Positions 48,760 to 49,130 of a stretch of 64,000 nucleotides of DNA are shown piece after piece. Each line of letters starts with the position of its first letter. Within the stretch, counting starts at the first letter, position 1. The DNA lies in the NCBI RefSeq assembly GCF_035994945.1, contig NZ_CP108677.1, positions 2,666,001 through 2,730,000 on the forward strand. The letters run 5' to 3'. Source of the stretch: Streptomyces sp. NBC_01216 (GTDB lineage Bacteria; Actinomycetota; Actinomycetes; Streptomycetales; Streptomycetaceae). Both the position numbers and the translations under genes were made by a program. Under the pieces are notes generated by a model. It was given only the letters and a program-made list of their open reading frames with translations, searched no databases and was not told where the DNA came from.

Positions 48760-49130
48760 TCAGGCAACCGCGTACGGCCAGCGTCCATCCGCTTGGCGGC
48801 GGGCGACCTCAGTCGTCGTGGTGGTCACCACGGACCCGTCCGACATGAGTCCGGTGACGGTGGCCTCGCAGGTCGTCACGGCGAGGTCGCCGAGCTGTCG
48901 GATGTCGCGCAGGTCCGGTGCCACGTGTGCGCCGGCTTCGACGTAGCCACGCGGACTCGCGGACTCGCGGACTCGCGGACTCGCGGACTCGCACGGAGTG
49001 TCTCCGGGTCGCAGACCACGGTGCCGGGTTGCGGAACGAGGATCGCACCGGGCTCACAGAACCCGACCAGAGCGTCCAGGTCGCCCGCCGCGAGGTGCTG
49101 GACGAACAGCTCTCCGAGGTGCTCCGGCGT
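48760..49130 (-). pseudogene. NTF2-like (SnoaL) gene, frame broken by an octamer repeat
   Basis: The first half reads PEHLGELFVQHLAAGDLDAL and VGFCEPGAILVPQPGTVV, the usual start of an NTF2/SnoaL-like protein. At 48992-48953 the frame runs into five copies of GCGAGTCC (minus strand) and then stops at 48876. The second half of the same fold, RGYVEAGAHVAPDLRDIRQL and later VTGLMSDGSVVTTTTTEVAR, is intact but in another frame, ending at 48760. Removing one 8-base unit would join both halves exactly. A start codon near 49130 is not clear (ACG in the expected place), so the true start may be further upstream. Confidence 0.75.
48953..48992. repeat. Five-copy 8-bp tandem repeat
   Basis: GGACTCGC repeated five times without error, inside the NTF2-like gene. 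Confidence 0.97.

Follow-up and report, generated by a model that had tools for sequence, protein, structure and literature searches.

In the 64-kb window, which is the whole stretch of DNA analysed here, the minus strand carries a SnoaL/NTF2-like domain that is split by a tandem array of the octamer GGACTCGC, with its two halves in different reading frames. The array holds five exact copies at 48953-48992 and, counting a partial unit, spans 48950-48992 (5.4 copies, 100% matches, no strand assigned). Past the array, the frame of the N-terminal half is closed by a minus-strand stop at 48876-48878 (from the open reading frames and the frame of the profile hit described below), while the frame of the C-terminal half ends at a minus-strand stop at 48760-48762. 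An earlier sequence-only reading of this DNA had described the same arrangement; the repeat was recovered at identical coordinates, the split gene and the stops at 48876 and 48760 were found again by open reading frames, Pfam and a family profile, and the adjoining gene that it had named MarR is identified as such by Pfam. Its upstream limit for the gene, near 49130, was set too low, as homology goes on to about 49302 (tblastn, profile).

Joined, the two halves score 33.9 bits against DUF4440 (cut-off 25.2) and 27.0 against SnoaL_2 (cut-off 27) in Pfam. The C-terminal half alone reaches 22.5 for DUF4440, below the cut-off of 25.2, and the N-terminal half alone is assigned to no Pfam family. 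Neither half contains internal stops, and both are still recognisable. Start codons exist upstream in the frame of the N-terminal half, including a GTG at 49319 that is preceded by purine-rich GGAAGGGG, a candidate ribosome site. A scan of 48600-49450 found no promoters or terminators on either strand.

The array has the features expected of slippage-driven phase variation in so far as it lies inside a coding frame, between the two halves, and its unit is not a multiple of three. A script run over copy numbers 0-9 agrees with the claim of the sequence-only reading that one, four or seven copies join the halves and five do not: 1, 4 and 7 copies bring the frames together, and 0, 2, 3, 5, 6, 8 and 9 leave them apart. 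Such frame-joining arithmetic would be reached by one array in three on gaining, or on losing, no more than a single unit. No other array in the window repeats a unit of 6-14 bases exactly three or more times, and in the 7.7-Mb genome at least 3 tandem copies of GGACTCGC occur at this place only. In a 1.2-Mb sample of the same genome (60 stretches of 20 kb), three arrays with non-triplet units of 7-10 bases and 4.6-6.9 copies were found, two of them between long coding-like frames and the third overlapping a short coding-like frame of 106 residues. Given three comparable arrays in that sample, arrays of this size are uncommon here without being remarkable. Arrays from this sample include one of TTCGGGC with 6.9 exact copies (L139:17622-17669; G000:C1:887622-887669), right beside a minus-strand ATG and covered by no long coding-like frame, and one of GGCTTCCACC with 5.3 exact copies (L135:8840-8892; G000:C1:188840-188892) between two minus-strand coding-like frames.

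The identity of the split gene becomes clearer from its full-length relatives. In a search of 392 genomes of the genus, the closest full-length homologues came from five (G067, G290, G053, G062, G200); all are open frames of ~350 residues in which HD (PF01966) comes first and SnoaL second. In seven further genomes of the genus, SnoaL was matched with an E-value no higher than 1e-12, and the five of these that were inspected (G239, G070, G135, G133, G336) look like stand-alone SnoaL genes. The HD-SnoaL fusion is common in the protein collection, with 1127 proteins at E 0.001 or better. A profile of length 350 was built from 111 of the 120 fusion proteins among the matches listed, those of 335-375 residues, with 9 left out for length, and was run on all stop-to-stop stretches in the six frames of the window, pieces unjoined.

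On the minus strand, this profile matches three pieces that follow one another as in the family, covering positions 111-126, 188-282 and 281-343 of 350; the next match scores 2.8 bits. The largest piece (48981-49265, minus strand, 94.5 bits, E 4e-28) contains the end of the HD domain, the linker and the N-terminal half of SnoaL, and is 38-44% identical to the five fusion homologues by tblastn. The C-terminal half of the SnoaL domain follows in another frame (48766-48954, minus strand, 64.3 bits, E 6e-19). Upstream, in the frame of that C-terminal half, lies a putative HD remnant (49255-49302, minus strand), weak alone at 9.3 bits (E 0.032 when the entire window is searched). The same short piece is seen by tblastn with four of the five fusion homologues, as 12-14 residues that are 64-86% identical (E 0.064-2.3), and its strand, order and adjacency fit an HD origin. 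The pieces have the same domain order as the actinobacterial HD-SnoaL proteins, which are annotated as SgcJ/EcaC family oxidoreductase, NTF2 family or HD domain protein, and share with them the linker motif LPxGTxPxWxDLIxxxGWGD as well as the SnoaL domain.

Unlike those proteins, the window copy is broken in frame at two points and has nothing for profile positions 1-110, about 127-187 and the final 6-7. No match to positions 1-110 exists in any of the six frames of the window, and it is within these positions that the H...HD metal site of the HD domain (motif from an excerpt of PMC8177086) falls when placed by eye on the homologue sequences. About 60 residues (about 127-187) are absent between the first and second pieces, which meet near 49255, where the frame changes too. 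At the other end, the frame of the C-terminal half stops 6-7 residues short of the family end, and the closing DDPFF-like residues are not found in that frame. Beyond its stop, at about 48735-48755 on the minus strand, a third frame reads ALDPFGG, which resembles the D-PF ending of the family and is too short to count; it may mark another small indel.

Measured against the family, the locus thus has a clear SnoaL/DUF4440 C-terminal domain (94.5 and 64.3 bits, and above the DUF4440 cut-off when joined), an HD domain represented by positions 111-126 (weakly) and from 188 onward, its metal site missing, and, in place of a single open frame of about 350 residues, pieces in two frames. A whole-genome search with an intact fusion found no second fusion copy; besides the window pieces it returned only one HD-only gene (263 aa, G000:C1:3740829-3741482), 59% identical to the fusion over residues 11-229. 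Because positions 1-110 are unmatched and no other fusion copy was found in the genome, the locus reads as the remnant of an HD-SnoaL family member rather than a working member.

Two other assignments were considered. The cyanamide hydratase family (TIGR03401) was rejected, as even an intact homologue (L006) reaches 46.4 bits against an NCBIfam cut-off of 109.85. A single-domain origin was suggested by stand-alone SnoaL proteins such as P0001 (132 aa, Nocardia), which shares 52-53% identity with the domain as read with one copy; it was rejected because the HD tail and linker share the frame of the SnoaL half. Stand-alone SnoaL/DUF4440 proteins like P0001 have a start of their own, are intact and keep the D-PF residues at the end, whereas the window copy comes after an HD remnant.

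Homologues indicate how long the gene once was at the array. Profile columns 272-292, which run across it, hold exactly 21 residues in 110 of the 111 full-length members; P0093 falls short of this and no member exceeds it. Aligned with 23 SnoaL homologues, the one-copy reading runs without a gap through the junction against 22, and P0022 is deleted there. Since homologues keep the one-copy length across the site, one copy is the ancestral state, as the sequence-only reading had suspected. That reading had also called for a check of intact homologues: the two halves stay in one frame in them, and the outcome that it had named as damaging, halves never in one frame, was not found.

Variants of the locus itself were sought in several collections. 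With the one-copy query, no protein above 52% identity was present in a collection of 5.8 billion proteins, and a scan of the genome collection for near relatives yielded 549 pattern-matched stretches, none of them confirmed. The present frame of the N-terminal half, taken from the ATG at 49358, gave 225 candidates; none reached E 0.001, and thus no strain variants were found by a search that also missed known distant homologues and is weak for that reason. Within the genome collection, 13 further records carry the octamer GGACTCGC in 4-14 copies, and none of those 13 fetched stretches matches the fusion profile, so the array does not travel with the HD-SnoaL gene.

Selection may have been relaxed on the part that is kept. 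Of its 35 near-invariant positions, eight are altered in the window, including changes from L to P, L to R and Y to C. When each of the 111 members was left out of its own conservation count, the same test gave 0-7 changes: none in 55, one in 28, two in 14, three in eight, four in one, six in four and seven in one, the last being the intact member P0136. The window is 45% identical to the consensus and the lowest member 46%; because the window is thus slightly farther from the consensus than any member, the test is suggestive of relaxed selection, not decisive. Third-position GC in both halves is 84%, still coding-like; three genes nearby (MarR, SdhA and the membrane protein) have 94-96%.

In the relatives G015, G004 and G019, where MarR and the downstream membrane-protein gene were both matched, the interval holds an MFS transporter; an alpha/beta hydrolase is also there in G015, and by eye a similar frame in G004. 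The fetched stretches of the other eight relatives contain no MarR match, and in none of the 11 stretches fetched at the locus was there any sign of the HD-SnoaL gene, which looks like an addition to the locus, or a replacement at it, in the window's lineage. Two palindromes, TTGAACNNGTTCAA, at 49351-49364 and 49395-49408, lie 44 bases apart in the gap that separates the remnant from plus-strand genes for a membrane protein, a DCC1-like oxidoreductase and a TetR regulator. The pair recurs, 44-46 bases apart, in 11 of the 11 relatives examined; the palindromes are likely operators, perhaps of the neighbouring TetR protein.

Overall, the region very probably consists of pieces of an HD-SnoaL two-domain gene whose frame is broken at the array, that is, a decaying pseudogene and not a switch. 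The octamer would have grown from one to five copies by replication slippage, and the 32 bases added would have shifted the frame. Large losses, before or after the growth of the array, would have removed function, and with function gone nothing would have selected against the array, which is likely one of several lesions. Singleton frameshifted pseudogenes offer a parallel, in that their frame change, like the one in the window, is not conserved in homologues; an excerpt of PMC3711429 judges such singleton changes to be indel mutation, pseudogene or error. Unlike the pseudogenes in that excerpt, the window has a tandem repeat that marks the likely cause of one frame change.

Among other explanations, a recent single inactivation, in which growth of the octamer array was the one event that broke a working gene, has little probability. 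It would account for two SnoaL halves that are recognisable and free of internal stops, but the frame changes a second time, between the HD piece and the SnoaL half, and no fewer than two further parts, the C-terminus and most of the HD domain, are lost, which argues against it. Of the 'recent inactivation' offered by the sequence-only reading, the inactivation stands, as the gene is broken; 'recent' could apply to the array, hardly to a whole gene with several lesions.

The other possibility raised by that reading, a slippage-driven switch, found no support in the comparison with the family, since the DNA that it read as a complete gene is the tail of an HD-SnoaL fusion that has lost most of the HD domain, a middle segment and the C-terminus. 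A phase-variable gene should be complete and working at some copy number; here the family's gene is incomplete at every count, because parts outside the array are missing and no copy number restores them. What could still be switched is a shortened stand-alone SnoaL protein starting downstream of the lost HD domain. Such a protein is conceivable, given that the protein collection contains SnoaL proteins without an HD part and that candidate starts lie upstream in the frame of the N-terminal half, the GTG with its purine-rich stretch among them; three of the ten copy numbers tried join the frames, and slippage phase variation is known in the genus from the G tract of pglX (PMC4365076, excerpt). 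However, the family's closing 6-7 residues are gone here as well, eight of the 35 near-invariant positions are altered, third-position GC is lowered, and the retained frame would carry a useless HD tail. Extra residues at the site occur in none of the 111 family members among the matches listed, the one-copy query meets nothing above 52% identity among the 5.8 billion proteins, and the present-frame query has no match (a weak point, as known distant homologues were missed too). Nothing beyond the arithmetic was seen in its favour, and switching of the leftover SnoaL part is very unlikely. That the fusion was cut down to a SnoaL-only gene whose array now flips a small protein, which would make this an early phase-variable locus in the genus, is more doubtful still.

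In both pglX and the window gene, repeat length decides whether the frame is open; in Streptomyces, pglX is an otherwise intact gene whose switching has been measured, according to an excerpt of PMC4365076, whereas the window gene has lost other parts.

The chance that the array was misassembled or misread in sequencing is negligible: copy number can be checked only with reads, but the array is just 43 bases, shorter than ordinary sequencing reads, and a mistake there would leave the other lost parts unexplained.

As a case, the decaying HD-SnoaL pseudogene would be an ordinary one, in which an untended repeat expanded. Correct on/off arithmetic of a repeat is not sufficient for calling a switch, and the rest of the gene needs to be compared with full-length homologues.
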